Part shown: positions 8,899-55,309 of the stretch, one piece after another
Layout: every line of letters starts with the position of its first letter
Numbering within the stretch: position 1 is the first letter of the stretch
Assembly: GCA_017794945.1 (NCBI GenBank)
Contig: CP051239.1
Location: 1,850,692-1,914,691 of the forward strand
From: Alcanivorax sp.
GTDB taxonomy: Bacteria > Pseudomonadota > Gammaproteobacteria > Pseudomonadales > Alcanivoracaceae
Reading direction: 5' to 3'
Length of the DNA: 64,000 nucleotides
Notes under the pieces: generated by a model
The model's input: the letters and a program-made list of their open reading frames with translations, nothing else
Databases searched by the model: none
What the model was told of the DNA's origin: nothing
Position numbers and translations under genes: made by a program

Positions 8899-8915
8899 GC
8901 CTTCTGAAGCGGCCT

Positions 8916-9410
8916 TGTGGGAGCGGGCCCAGCCCGCGAAAGGGTGGCTTACAGCCACCCGGCAAAGGTTGCCCCGCAGTATTCCAGAGACGCTGATTCG
9001 TCGGGTGTCCGGAGCTCCGTATCCGAGACGCGGGGCAATGGTGGTGCCTTCCGGGATCGCTCAAGCCCTCCATGGGCGCTCTCATTTGGCCATCCCTGGC
9101 CAAATAGGTCCCTCCAGGCACCACCATTGCCCCGCTCACCTAGCAGCTCCCACCGCCACAGGGCATAACACCGCCTGGACCTTTCTACGAAGTAGGGTTT
9201 TGGCGGTGAATTCCCCAAGGAGCGCCGGGATCGGGTGGGCCCGTCCAGGACCGTATTTGGCCAGGGATGGCCAAATCCGAGCTTACATGGACGTACTTGC
9301 AGCGTGTCCTGGACGGGCCCACCCGATCCCGGCGCGGGCTCTCTGGAGAGAGGTCTCTGGGATCCTGCCGGGAGCTGGGCTCCCTTTCGCGGGCAGGGCC
9401 CGCTCCCACA
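8916..9410. repeat. REP-bounded composite repeat, copy A (two nested hairpins)
   Basis: This 495-bp intergenic block between BVMO 1 and nudE has no credible gene. It starts TGTGGGAGCGGGCCCAGCC and ends with the inverted form GGGCCCGCTCCCACA, the REP type known from pseudomonads. Inside are two large hairpins. One has exact 19-bp arms at 9031-9049 and 9116-9134. The other has exact 30-bp arms at 9222-9251 and 9306-9335. Each loop carries the same 20-bp core palindrome, TTTGGCCA-4-TGGCCAAA (9085-9104, 9256-9275). The left third of the block is shared with the copy at 17.5 kb in opposite orientation. Confidence 0.85.
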
Positions 9411-9513
9411 AGGTCCGCTCCTCTCAGGCCCGGCTGCCACAAAATAGCGGCCAGCACCGGTTGGGTTCGTGCGTGGTTGCGGTTAGGCTTAACGCCGTCG
9501 CAAAGGAGTGGCC

Positions 9514-17524: not shown

Positions 17525-17555
17525 ATTTTTGAAAGGTTTCTTGAGGTTGGGTGGT

Positions 17556-17952
17556 TGTGGGAGCTTGCCTTGCAAGCGAAAGGGTGGGTTAGCCACCCGG
17601 CAAAGGTTGCCCCGCGGTATTCCAGAGACCTCTCTCCAGACAGCCCACCCGATCCCGGCGCTCCTTGGGAAATTCGCCGCCACGAACCCCACTTCGTGGA
17701 AAGGTCCAGGCGGTGTTATGTCCCGTGGCGGTGCCGCTGCCAAGTGAGCGGGGCAATGGTGGTGCCTGGAGGGAGCTGTTTGGCCAGGGATGGCCAAACT
17801 AACAGCGGCCATGGACGGCTTGAGCGGTCCCGGAAGGCACCACCATTGCACCGCGTCTCCGATACGGAGCACCGAACACCTGAAAACCAAGGCCTCTGGC
17901 ATCCTGCCGGGTGGCTAAAGCCACCCTTTCGCGGGCGGGGCCCGCTCGCACA
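17556..17952. repeat. REP-bounded composite repeat, copy B
   Basis: This 397-bp intergenic block, bounded by TGTGGGAGCTTGCC and GGCCCGCTCGCACA, makes up most of the 544-bp gap before the acyl-CoA ligase stop. An inner hairpin has 20-bp arms with one mismatch (17748-17767 and 17835-17854), and the core palindrome TTTGGCCA-4-TGGCCAAA is at 17779-17798. The hairpin and its flanks align to copy A in reverse orientation, about 80-85% by eye. No gene is supported within it. Confidence 0.85.
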
Positions 17953-17995
17953 AACCCTTACTCCGTAGAAGGTCCGGGCGGTGTTCTACACCGCG

Positions 17996-33806: not shown

Positions 33807-33841
33807 CGGCCCGGAGCTTCTCGGTGCTACGGCAGCAAGAT

Positions 33842-33926
33842 TGTGCGAGCTTGCTTGCAAGCGAAAGGGTGGCTAAAGCCACCCTTTCGCGGGCTGGGCC
33901 CGCTCCCACAAAGGCCCGCTCCCACA
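33842..33926. repeat. minimal REP inverted pair
   Basis: TGTGCGAGCTTGC...GCCCGCTCCCACA (33842-33910) is two REP units head to head around GGGTGGCTAAAGCCACCC, with no inserted cargo. A further half REP (GGCCCGCTCCCACA) ends at 33926. It separates the diiron gene from BVMO 2 and may limit read-through or stabilise the upstream mRNA. Confidence 0.8.
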
Positions 33927-33999: not shown

Positions 34000-35733
34000 A
34001 TGAATGACGACACTCCCAACAGCAATGACAGCCGCGTGGCGGACCAGCCTGAGGTGAAGGCGGAAGCAACCGCGGCTGACAACGGTGGCGCGAAGAAGGC
34101 CGCCGCTAAAGCGCCGCGCAAGAAAGCAGCGGCAAGGAAGGCCACCGCGAAGAAAGCGACCGCTAAAAAGGCGACCGCCAAGAAAGCCGCCGCTAAAAAG
34201 GCGAGCACGCAGCCGGCGGCGAAGAAGGCCACTGCAAAAAAAGCGGCGCCTAAAAAAGCCGCCGCCAAGCGCAAGGCAAAACCGGCCTCGGTGGTGATCG
34301 TGGGCGCCGGCTTCGCCGGGCTGGGCATGGCGATCCGGCTGAAGCAGGCGGGCGTTAATGATTTCGTGATTCTGGAGCGCGGCGACCAGGTCGGCGGCAC
34401 CTGGCGGGACAACACCTATCCGGGCGCCGCCTGCGATATTCCGTCCAATCTGTATTCCTATTCATTCGCGCCCAACCCGGAGTGGTCGCGCAGTTTCTCC
34501 GGCAGCAACGAGATTCTCGATTACATCCACTATCTGGTGGACGAATTCGATCTGGAAAAACACATTCGCTTCAACTGCAACGTCACCGATTTGTCGTTCC
34601 AGGAGAAAGCCGGCCTGTGGGAAGCCACGCTGGAGAAAGGCGAGGTGGTGCGCGGCCGCACCGCGGTGATGGCCCAGGGTCCGTTGTCCAACGCCAGTTT
34701 CCCGAACATCGAAGGGCTGGAGGAGTTCGAGGGCAAGAAGATTCACAGCGCGCGCTGGGATCACGACTACGACTTCGCCGGCAAGCGCGTGGCGGTGATC
34801 GGCACCGGCGCCAGCGGTATTCAGATCGTCCCGGAGCTGGTGAAAACCGTGGGCAAGTTGAAAGTGTTCCAGCGCACGCCGGGCTGGGTGGTGCCGCGGC
34901 CGGACTTCAAAACGCCGGACTGGCACAAGACGCTGTTCAAGAAAATTCCCGCCAGCCAGAAGGCGGTGCGCCAGGCGCTGTTCTGGACCCACGAAACCAT
35001 GGCCATGGCGGTGATCTGGAACTCGCCGCTGACCCGCGTTGCCGAGCGGCTCAGCCTGGCGCACCTGCATAACCAGGTTGAAGACGACTGGATGCGCCGG
35101 CAGTTGACCCCGGACTTCCGCATCGGCTGCAAACGGGTGCTGGTTTCCAACGACTACTATCCTGCGCTGCAGAAAGACAATGCCGAGTTGATCACCTGGC
35201 CGATCGCGCGGTTGGCGCCGAACGGCATTCGCACCTCGGACGGCGTCGAGCACCAGCTGGATTGCATCGTGTTCGCCACCGGTTTTGACGTCAGCAAAAG
35301 CGGCACGCCGTTTCCGGTCAAGGGTCTGGATGGCCGGCGGCTGGACCAGGAATGGCAGGGCGGCGCCCAGGCCTACAAGAGCATCAACGTGGCCGGCTAC
35401 CCGAACCTGTTCCTCACCTTCGGGCCGAACTCCGGTCCGGGCCACAACTCGGCGTTGGTGTATATGGAGTCCCAGCTCGACTACGCGGTGAAGGGTATTC
35501 TGCGCATCCTCGACGGCAATCTGAAAATGCTGGACGTAAAGGAGGACGTGCAGCAGCGGCACAACCAGCGCCTGCAAAAGCGCCTGGCCAAGACCAACTG
35601 GAATTCAGGCTGCAAGAGCTGGTACCTCACCGAGGACGGCTTCAACGCCACCATGTTCCCGGGCTTCGCCACCCAGTACCAAAGGCAGATGGCGCGGTTC
35701 GAGGAAAGCGATTATCAGGCGGTGCCGGCCTGA
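34000..35733 (+). CDS. BVMO 2 with histone H1-like Lys/Ala-rich N-terminal tail
   Basis: The 577-aa flavoprotein monooxygenase has an unusual extension. Residues 1-30 are acidic. Residues 31-94 are almost only Lys, Ala, Thr and Arg in AKKAT/AAKKA repeats, like bacterial H1-like or AlgP proteins. The enzyme proper starts near residue 97: GxGxxG at 102-107, DQVGGTWRDNTYPGAACD, and the BVMO fingerprint FEGKKIHSARWD at 243-254. NADPH-site GTGASGIQ follows. The same frame and start continue through the tail without interruption. The tail could bind DNA, RNA, polyphosphate or membrane; this is inference. The ribosome site is weak. Confidence 0.93.
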   Translation: MNDDTPNSNDSRVADQPEVKAEATAADNGGAKKAAAKAPRKKAAARKATAKKATAKKATAKKAAAKKASTQPAAKKATAKKAAPKKAAAKRKAKPASVVIVGAGFAGLGMAIRLKQAGVNDFVILERGDQVGGTWRDNTYPGAACDIPSNLYSYSFAPNPEWSRSFSGSNEILDYIHYLVDEFDLEKHIRFNCNVTDLSFQEKAGLWEATLEKGEVVRGRTAVMAQGPLSNASFPNIEGLEEFEGKKIHSARWDHDYDFAGKRVAVIGTGASGIQIVPELVKTVGKLKVFQRTPGWVVPRPDFKTPDWHKTLFKKIPASQKAVRQALFWTHETMAMAVIWNSPLTRVAERLSLAHLHNQVEDDWMRRQLTPDFRIGCKRVLVSNDYYPALQKDNAELITWPIARLAPNGIRTSDGVEHQLDCIVFATGFDVSKSGTPFPVKGLDGRRLDQEWQGGAQAYKSINVAGYPNLFLTFGPNSGPGHNSALVYMESQLDYAVKGILRILDGNLKMLDVKEDVQQRHNQRLQKRLAKTNWNSGCKSWYLTEDGFNATMFPGFATQYQRQMARFEESDYQAVPA

Positions 35734-48764: not shown

Positions 48765-49030
48765 GGAGCCTCTGGGCAACTCCCTGGCGTGCTCTGGCTT
48801 TCAGGCGAGTCCGCCGTCAAGGCGCGATTTTGAAGTCGTGCTGACGGCCCGACGAAAAAGCGCAACGCTGAGGGCGTGCTCGCCTGAAAGCCCCGAAGGG
48901 CGCGTCCTGAAGCGAGCATCTGCTGCGTTGTGCTTCTTGCCAAGGGCTGCGGCCATTGGCGGCGAACCACGCCTTGCATCTGCTCGCTTCAGGACGCGCA
49001 GAGCACGCCAGGGAGTTGCCCAGAGGCTCC
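48765..49030. mobile_element. MITE-like non-coding cruciform element
   Basis: A 266-bp element has exact 32-bp terminal inverted repeats (48765-48796 and 48999-49030). Two further hairpins lie inside: 14-bp arms (48796-48809 and 48879-48892) and 19-bp arms (48900-48918 and 48981-48999). It thus folds as a three-way cruciform. No transposase frame is present. No clear target-site duplication was seen. It fills most of the 679-bp gap between the AraC gene and the RND adaptor. Confidence 0.75.
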
Positions 49031-55113: not shown

Positions 55114-55283
55114 TGTGGGAGCGGTTCTTGTGGGAGCGGGCCCCGCCCGCGAAAGGGAGCGCAGCTCCCGGCAAAGGTTGCCCCGCAGGATCCCAGAGCC
55201 TTCTCTAACGACAGCACAAACAGCGTTTCTGGAATCCCGCCGGCCGGCTGTGCCGGCCTTTCGCTTGCAGGCAAGCTCCCACA
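55114..55283. repeat. REP-bounded composite repeat, copy C (short cargo)
   Basis: The element contains a doubled left REP (TGTGGGAGCGG at 55114 and TGTGGGAGCGGGCC at 55130) and ends in GGCAAGCTCCCACA. Inside it keeps the shared module GGCAAAGGTTGCCCCGC found in copies A and B but lacks the TTTGGCCA hairpin. It lies between the RND operon and the convergent MarR gene. No ORF supported. Confidence 0.8.
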
Positions 55284-55309
55284 AGTCCGACTTCGTAGCG
55301 GAGCCTGTC

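Follow-up and report, generated by a model that had tools for sequence, protein, structure and literature searches.

TnpA-REP recognises REPs as folded single-stranded DNA. A small number of dedicated sponge RNAs, e.g., CsrB and CsrC, are held to govern most of the activity of CsrA, and CsrB, RsmX, RsmY, and RsmZ are all products of dedicated sRNA genes. The CsrB/RsmX/RsmY/RsmZ sponges carry several GGA hairpin loops per RNA, and the CsrA/RsmE site is an ANGGAN hexaloop for which the consulted portion of PMC7652899 gives the SELEX consensus RUACARGGAUGU and a preference for stems of four or fewer pairs. The TwoAYGGAY RNA (RF01731) has tandem G-A mismatches and predicted CsrA binding, according to the excerpt of PMC4333381 used here. 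Ysr224 (RF02770), a Yersinia sRNA family, is reported to be multicopy and to be expressed in Y. ruckeri (PMC12112432), and it is listed in the top 20 sRNA families by prevalence (PMC9029176); neither a CsrA nor a repeat-element reading of Ysr224 is given in the parts of these two accounts that were consulted. TIRtrons (TIRYT) are TIR-flanked Y1 transposases, and their repeats are moderately abundant, sometimes self-complementary, and found in dimers, as described in the accessible sections of PMC3733652. In the literature searched, to which most subscription journals did not belong, we found no description of dispersed repeats with CsrA-type loops. Here we describe a family of dispersed hairpins with such loops, found as cargo of REP-bounded composites.

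REP-bounded sites in the window

The window, i.e., the whole 64-kb stretch of DNA that was analysed, contains four REP-bounded sites. A preliminary description had read these four sites with different cargo, and inspection of the sequence found all of them present as read, borders and cargo included. An inverted REP pair, the arrangement that defines a REPIN, bounds the 33.8- and 55.1-kb sites, both plain REPINs, and forms the outer frame of the other two. The absence of cargo at 33.8 kb and the sole presence of the CCCGGCAAAGGTTGCCCCGC module at 55.1 kb were likewise borne out. So was the relation between the two larger composites: the 8.9-kb site holds the 17.5-kb unit in reverse orientation (9001-9240 versus 17643-17883) plus a second hairpin with exact 30-bp arms and the same core. 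The REP-related features are as follows.

8915-8944, plus strand: left REP of the 8.9-kb composite, from the sequence, 97% complementary to 9382-9413
8958-9009, no strand given: REPIN inner module CCCGGCAAAGGTTGCCCCGC... in the 8.9-kb composite, with copies also at 17596 and 55167
9382-9411, minus strand: right (inverse) REP of the 8.9-kb composite, inverted-repeat match
17555-17584, plus strand: left REP of the 17.5-kb composite, inverted-repeat match
17924-17953, minus strand: right REP of the 17.5-kb composite, inverted-repeat match
33841-33911, no strand given: bare REPIN, i.e., a REP pair without family hairpin, from repeat comparison and covariance model
55128-55284, no strand given: REPIN with only the inner module CCCGGCAAAGGTTGCCCCGC, without family hairpin, from repeat comparison and covariance model

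Two further repeats were seen in the window. A 32-nt exact inverted repeat (48765-48796 and 48999-49030, spacing 202 nt) is unlike the hairpin family, and short-period repeats rich in Lys/Ala codons (34089-34262) lie right after the 33.8-kb REPIN.

Structure of the hairpins

The 8.9-kb composite carries two back-to-back hairpins, A and B, and the 17.5-kb composite a single one, A', for which no B-type partner was found at that site. Copies were aligned (alignment A1, 69 of 75 arm-distinct copies; left out were L011, L065, two copies of L141, and the copies with long tips in L090 and L138) and a covariance model, R1, was built on this alignment. Searched against the window with E up to 1, R1 matched A, B, and A' alone.

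9030-9135, minus strand: hairpin A, long arms and two-loop tip, with GGA loops on the minus strand (R1 match 9125-9040, 45.1 bits, E 2.3e-8)
9067-9074, minus strand: tip loop 2 of hairpin A, CATGGAGG, from the sequence
9091-9098, minus strand: tip loop 1 of hairpin A, CAGGGATG, from the sequence
9136-9221, no strand given: spacer separating back-to-back hairpins A and B, from the sequence
9222-9335, plus strand: hairpin B, two-loop tip, exact 30-bp arms at 9222-9251 and 9306-9335 (R1 match 9234-9323, 92.0 bits, E 2.2e-19)
9262-9269, plus strand: tip loop 1 of hairpin B, CAGGGATG, hexaloop AGGGAU, from the sequence
9286-9293, plus strand: tip loop 2 of hairpin B, CATGGACG in UAC/GUA, hexaloop AUGGAC, from the sequence
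17748-17855, plus strand: hairpin A' of the 17.5-kb composite (R1 match 17758-17844, 39.1 bits, E 5.9e-7)
17785-17792, plus strand: tip loop 1 of hairpin A', CAGGGATG, from the sequence
17810-17817, plus strand: tip loop 2 of hairpin A', CATGGACG, from the sequence

Fold energies were -92.5 (B), -72.6 (A), and -69.4 (A') kcal/mol, with z-scores of -11.6, -8.4, and -7.2, and none of 200 shuffles folded as well as A, B, or A'. In general, the hairpin is about 110 nt long, and its long arms are topped by two small hairpins whose ANGGAN loops stand about 24 nt apart. The tip between the arms, mostly 51-54 nt, runs in the order CNT or similar, hairpin 1 with an ANGGAN-type loop, GAGC, hairpin 2 (ANGGAN in YAC/GTR or similar), and GCGT. 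The arms end inwards in GGGAC/GTCCC-like letters and measure 16-38 bp (median 31, in 84 arm-distinct clusters); their letters are unrelated between lineages, and their pairing is nearly perfect. This architecture changes the earlier picture of the loop in two respects: what had been read as a palindrome, TTTGGCCA-4-TGGCCAAA, is itself a small hairpin, the first of the pair at the tip, and the second (in hairpin B at 9286-9293, CATGGACG in UAC...GUA) had been overlooked. Some tips contain extra sequence (L090, L138, and copies in the own genome, G000), which lies between hairpin 1 and GAGC and could fold into a third stem. In L156 (Luteimonas) and L204 we observed another long hairpin with several GGA motifs and a different middle, perhaps a second family.

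Copy number, distribution, and orientation

In the own genome, the 495-base composite of the 8.9-kb site gave at least 130 matching pieces, pieces of one copy being counted separately (40 of 196 candidates scored), and R1 gave at least 86 copies (best 150 of 2208 candidates scored). The core palindrome, whose restriction to the four sites would by the preliminary description have told against its growth series, is thus widespread. The composite is present in 26 of 114 genomes, own included, and the range of the hairpin among genomes is far wider. A hairpin-2 pattern occurred in 88 of 390 genomes of the order, with 16 copies in the own genome and a maximum of 46 (G280), as against three matches overall for the reversed pattern. 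R1 matched 32 of 398 genomes of the phylum, all flagged as own, same genus, order, or class (the share of other classes in the 398 is not given), and the copy counts across these genomes are lower bounds since 11 candidates were scored per genome. Among the matches listed (at least 119 stretches), the holders include Xanthomonas, Stenotrophomonas, Marinobacter, Alcanivorax, Alloalcanivorax, Halopseudomonas, Microbulbifer, Aquisalimonas, Haliea, Sedimenticola, Luteimonas, Arenimonas, Rheinheimera, and Erwinia. By eye, a doublet in Alloalcanivorax venustensis (L144) is the same as one in G005 (L036), from which the window is probably of the genus Alloalcanivorax. The hairpin family was also found in two stretches of a viral contig collection, and blastn against a plasmid collection gave no matches.

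The copies are often paired and have a preferred layout. In the own genome, 29 of 31 neighbouring pairs are back to back, i.e., divergent (p 9e-16), the gap between the R1 matches of neighbours is 85-123 bp in 20 of the 31, and 26 of the 86 copies are solitary. Among the fetched loci, 84 neighbouring pairs comprised 60 divergent, 10 convergent, and 14 tandem ones. By eye, the two partners of a doublet have different arms, which turn up elsewhere in other combinations. Other arrangements were also observed: six same-orientation tandem tips about 227 bp apart in L066 (G003:C1 about 94426-95650), unlike the usual divergent pairs, and alternating hairpins (- + - + - +) in steps of about 150 bp in L175 (2440-3400). 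Six intervals separate widely spaced divergent tips, two of them inside hairpin arrays. The ORFs in four such intervals, which from their likeness we take to be of the AraC, ketoacyl synthase, DnaJ, and enoyl-CoA hydratase types, read by eye as host genes, and a cargo gene between the tips was rejected.

Covariation and loop conservation

RNAalifold recovered 25 pairs from A1, 24 of them with compensated double changes, and a fuller structure has 28 pairs with double compensation in 27. Paired cells amounted to 93.9%, versus 60.1% in shuffled and 35-45% in slid alignments; the A1 arms had been selected for at least 15 of 18 pairs, which makes this percentage partly, and the compensation less so, a matter of construction. 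The covariation score was 0.839 versus 0.181 shuffled, and none of 500 shuffles reached either the percentage paired or the score.

The loops are conserved as well. When hairpin 2 and the arms served as the anchor, a script found GGA in the loop of hairpin 1 in 235 of 244 copies; by eye, eight of the nine exceptions are CANGGAYG in another stem register, and one (L165) has GAA, a real loss. In the converse test, anchored on hairpin 1 plus the arms, the script found the second GGA hexaloop in 117 of 126 arm-distinct copies, the other nine having GGA in that stretch. In the own genome, the model places GGA in loop 1 of 86 of 88 copies (the two exceptions being GAGA) and in loop 2 of all 88. Arms were present at 164 of 198 GGA anchors versus 1 of 100 other-loop anchors, in loci that had themselves been fetched by the GGA pattern.

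Strand specificity and predicted CsrA binding

Non-Watson-Crick cells in the arms distinguish the two strands. Among 4176 arm cells of 261 copies, G-U occurred 203 times versus 18 for A-C, and counted as distinct events in 84 arm clusters the figures were 81 versus 17 (p 3.6e-11), the arms having been picked on Watson-Crick pairs alone. The G-U excess over A-C arose both from G-C majority pairs (18:7) and from A-T majority pairs (9:3), so a cytosine-deamination bias alone is insufficient to account for it. The fold of the GGA strand is therefore what is kept in the hairpin arms, as RNA or as single-stranded DNA: a G-T wobble in a folded single DNA strand would yield the same asymmetry as G-U in RNA.

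The hairpins present two ANGGAN hexaloops on one strand, which is the sequence asked of a CsrA/RsmE site, and the letters that are free in their loops are those left free by the CsrA/RsmE consensus, as far as the portion of PMC7652899 used here gives it. A CsrA gene was found in all 18 genomes examined; three of these (G240, G286, and G389) have no hairpin-2 pattern match, so its presence discriminates little. One genome, G060, holds nine CsrA-family matches and 15 hairpin pattern copies. Some features count against binding by CsrA. The stem of hairpin 1 has a median of nine pairs over all copies, versus the four or fewer favoured in SELEX (PMC7652899, same portion). The last loop letter is almost always C or T, which is narrower than the CsrA/RsmE consensus. 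The strand filed for Ysr224 has UCC in place of GGA.

Judging from the loops, the double ANGGAN tip would be what a CsrA dimer needs, and we lean towards a mobile element that serves itself and has its RNA bound by CsrA, rather than one moving purely as DNA. The GGA strand would be transcribed by read-through or from some promoter, and a CsrA/RsmA dimer would sit on the tip with one loop per subunit. Given the back-to-back layout, one copy would be made in the proper sense whichever side transcription came from. These transcripts might serve as dispersed CsrA decoys or as mRNA tails tethered to CsrA, and the element's own stability or mobility would probably gain from CsrA binding. A wider proposal, which we put forward tentatively, is that of a mobile family of Gammaproteobacteria with a paired CsrA-binding tip, whose doublets always present one sense copy, and whose dozens of copies per genome may form a distributed CsrA sponge that couples the upkeep of the element to the Csr state of the host.

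The genomic context of the copies, based on a crude ORF caller, bears on whom such binding might serve. Single copies had no sense preference toward host genes, with 27 sense versus 24 antisense in co-directional gaps and 34 sense versus 39 antisense when scored against the nearest 3' end that faces them. When another copy lay within 600 bp, orientation to that 3' end was antisense in 40 cases versus 22 sense (p 0.03), an excess that is expected from the divergent layout itself. Because there is no sense bias toward host genes, a simple host-serving role, as an mRNA element with copies sense to host genes, is disfavoured. The U-run of an intrinsic terminator is lacking as well: at least six T in the 12 nt after the hairpin were found in 0 of 84 cases on the GGA strand versus 9 of 84 on the other.

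Transposases and alternatives to an RNA role

The main rival is a mobile hairpin acting at the DNA level, in which the folded GGA strand, as single-stranded DNA, would be the target of a transposase or recombinase, the doublet would move as one unit in the manner of a REPIN, and the likeness to CsrA sites would be coincidental. We regard this as possible, if the less probable of the two readings. Dispersal, doublets, and an empty site all suit it, as do the strand-specific pairing, the lack of orientation preference of single copies relative to genes, and the depletion of hairpins from divergent (promoter-only) gaps (9 of 144 versus 54 of 269, p 1.5e-4). The coincidence of the free loop letters with those of the CsrA/RsmE consensus speaks against it.

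The survey of Y1 transposases also speaks against it. The own genome has five Y1_Tnp matches. The link between REPs and RAYT made in the preliminary description is borne out: elsewhere in the genome a 153-aa Y1 transposase gene (G000:C1:259430, L033) has the composites' own REPs on both sides, i.e., it is a REP-flanked RAYT. A strict REP pattern had 0 matches in the own genome and was too strict to judge by. In another stretch (L034, G000:C1 about 2544243-2547563), three consecutive 234-aa ORFs have Y1_Tnp matches, and no full composite-type REP is present. The hairpin family, in contrast to the REPs, is not tied to a Y1 transposase. No Y1_Tnp match was obtained in 5 of 14 hairpin-rich genomes, including G280 with its 46 pattern copies, which leaves room for other kinds of recombinase. 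A strong R1 match lay near just one of 46 Y1 loci (L214, not Stenotrophomonas, E 1.4e-9), and a second match was weak (L291, E 0.93). No Y1 gene at the 46 loci was bracketed by two family hairpins according to R1, and a script found the two-loop tip beside none of them and a lone hairpin-2-like letter match in eight. Thus, the REPINs are probably moved by the genome's REP-flanked RAYT, and the hairpins probably by another agent.

Arms that are unrelated between lineages and yet nearly perfect could also be explained by passive repeats, in which template switching during replication corrects quasi-palindromes and no fold is selected. Such a process treats both strands alike and predicts equal numbers of G-U and A-C, whereas 81 versus 17 events were observed, and the conserved loops and GAGC...GCGT letters would be unexplained. 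On these counts, template switching stands refuted as a full account, and we consider it very unlikely.

Origin of the composites

The preliminary description proposed graded growth, i.e., one element enlarged by successive insertion of hairpins between standing REPs. Two patterns agree with growth of this kind: composites with and without A and B coexist, and a REP pair frames six doublets (L341, L345, L348, L350, L360, and L368) and the single hairpin of the 17.5-kb site (L389), ordered by position. The empty orthologous sites with which the description wished its series to be compared do not contain the REP pair that growth calls for. In the two relatives nearest to the own genome (G005 and G010), the flanks of the 8.9-kb site stand 19 bp apart with neither REP nor composite, and another five relatives show the two flanks and no composite. 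In one of these five (L277), the gap shows, by eye, a lone degenerate REP-like stretch and no pair. Twelve relatives were compared at this site, of which five (L279-L283) had the right flank only and were not usable; one of these, L279, carries its own hairpin doublet close to the gene there. At the 17.5-kb site, six of seven relatives have no REP or hairpin in the gap, and the seventh, G010, has the insert in common, cut there by a contig end.

The composite is moreover multicopy. Four further loci (L003, L005, L006, and L007) match the 495-base composite end to end at 82-84%, which makes the whole composite itself a repeated unit. The nesting also occurs in reverse. A whole REP pair lies between both hairpins at 2 of 31 doublet loci (L358 and L362), and a looser count of any REP between hairpins gives 9 of 31, these two included; of the rest, L369 is ambiguous, L348 and L368 each have a framed composite next to a third hairpin, and L347, L352, L355, and L367 have a lone REP. 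Finally, of 55 loci, 12 with doublets and 13 with single hairpins show no REP in the roughly 200 bp taken on each side. From the empty sites, the framing, and the reverse nesting it follows that two mobile families have landed in each other: the composites are two independent mobile repeats, REPINs and the hairpin family. The growth series is thus most improbable.

It is hardly credible that the hairpins are the terminal inverted repeats of TIRtrons, such as the self-complementary S. maltophilia 1152 family: that family is often paired at short distance (PMC3733652, accessible sections), but the Y1 flanks examined in S. maltophilia (four loci in one genome and one in another) are GGGGTCAGATCCCTTTCGC-type and other repeats, and by script none of the 46 Y1 loci has the two-loop tip beside it, the model adding L214 and the weak L291. 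L287/L288 appear to be of the 1152 type from their GGGGWSAS motif.

Comparison with known systems

At the gathering threshold, Rfam gave no match in the window and none of the hairpin kind in 14 loci; sub-threshold miRNA matches were taken as look-alikes of long hairpins and set aside. The composites resemble REPINs/BIMEs with RAYT in being bounded by REP pairs, in having a RAYT with the same REPs in the genome, and in their inverted doublets. Unlike REPINs/BIMEs, the hairpins of the window are about 110 nt long, have a two-loop tip and no likeness to REPs, and the family occurs without nearby REPs and in genomes without Y1_Tnp matches.

The hairpins share with TwoAYGGAY two GGA-hexaloop hairpins on a common stem, and several A1 rows show tandem G-A mismatches in their hairpin 1. 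RF01731 scored 31.8 and 31.0 bits in two of nine loci, below the curated 43, and was not listed for nine further loci with E up to 5, nor for the 14 loci at gathering. Unlike TwoAYGGAY, the hairpin family is dispersed, amplified within lineages, and paired, with freely varying arms. In the alignment, the consensus core of Ysr224 is the reverse complement of the hairpin tip, and RF02770 scored 29.4 bits on the opposite strand versus the curated 70 (18-20 bits in L175); the filed Rfam strand is the opposite one, with UCC instead of GGA. The CsrB/RsmX/RsmY/RsmZ sponges likewise have several GGA hairpin loops on one RNA, but here there are two loops per unit, many dispersed units, and neither a promoter nor a terminator was identified.

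If CsrA sites do occur on dozens of repeats in each genome, Csr output would vary with the repeat content, a dispersed class of intergenic repeats would gain a candidate cellular ligand, and many-copy sRNA families such as Ysr224 would have a possible explanation. The scatter of the hairpins through this and many related genomes, often as back-to-back pairs, allows a test of whether a mobile repeat has acquired binding to the global regulator CsrA. TIRtron repeats, for their part, are like the hairpins in being moderately abundant, sometimes self-complementary, and in dimers, whereas the Y1 genes examined here are flanked by repeats other than the hairpins. On the one hand, TwoAYGGAY and Ysr224 are the nearest known systems by model; on the other hand, REPINs and TIRtrons are the nearest by life style.
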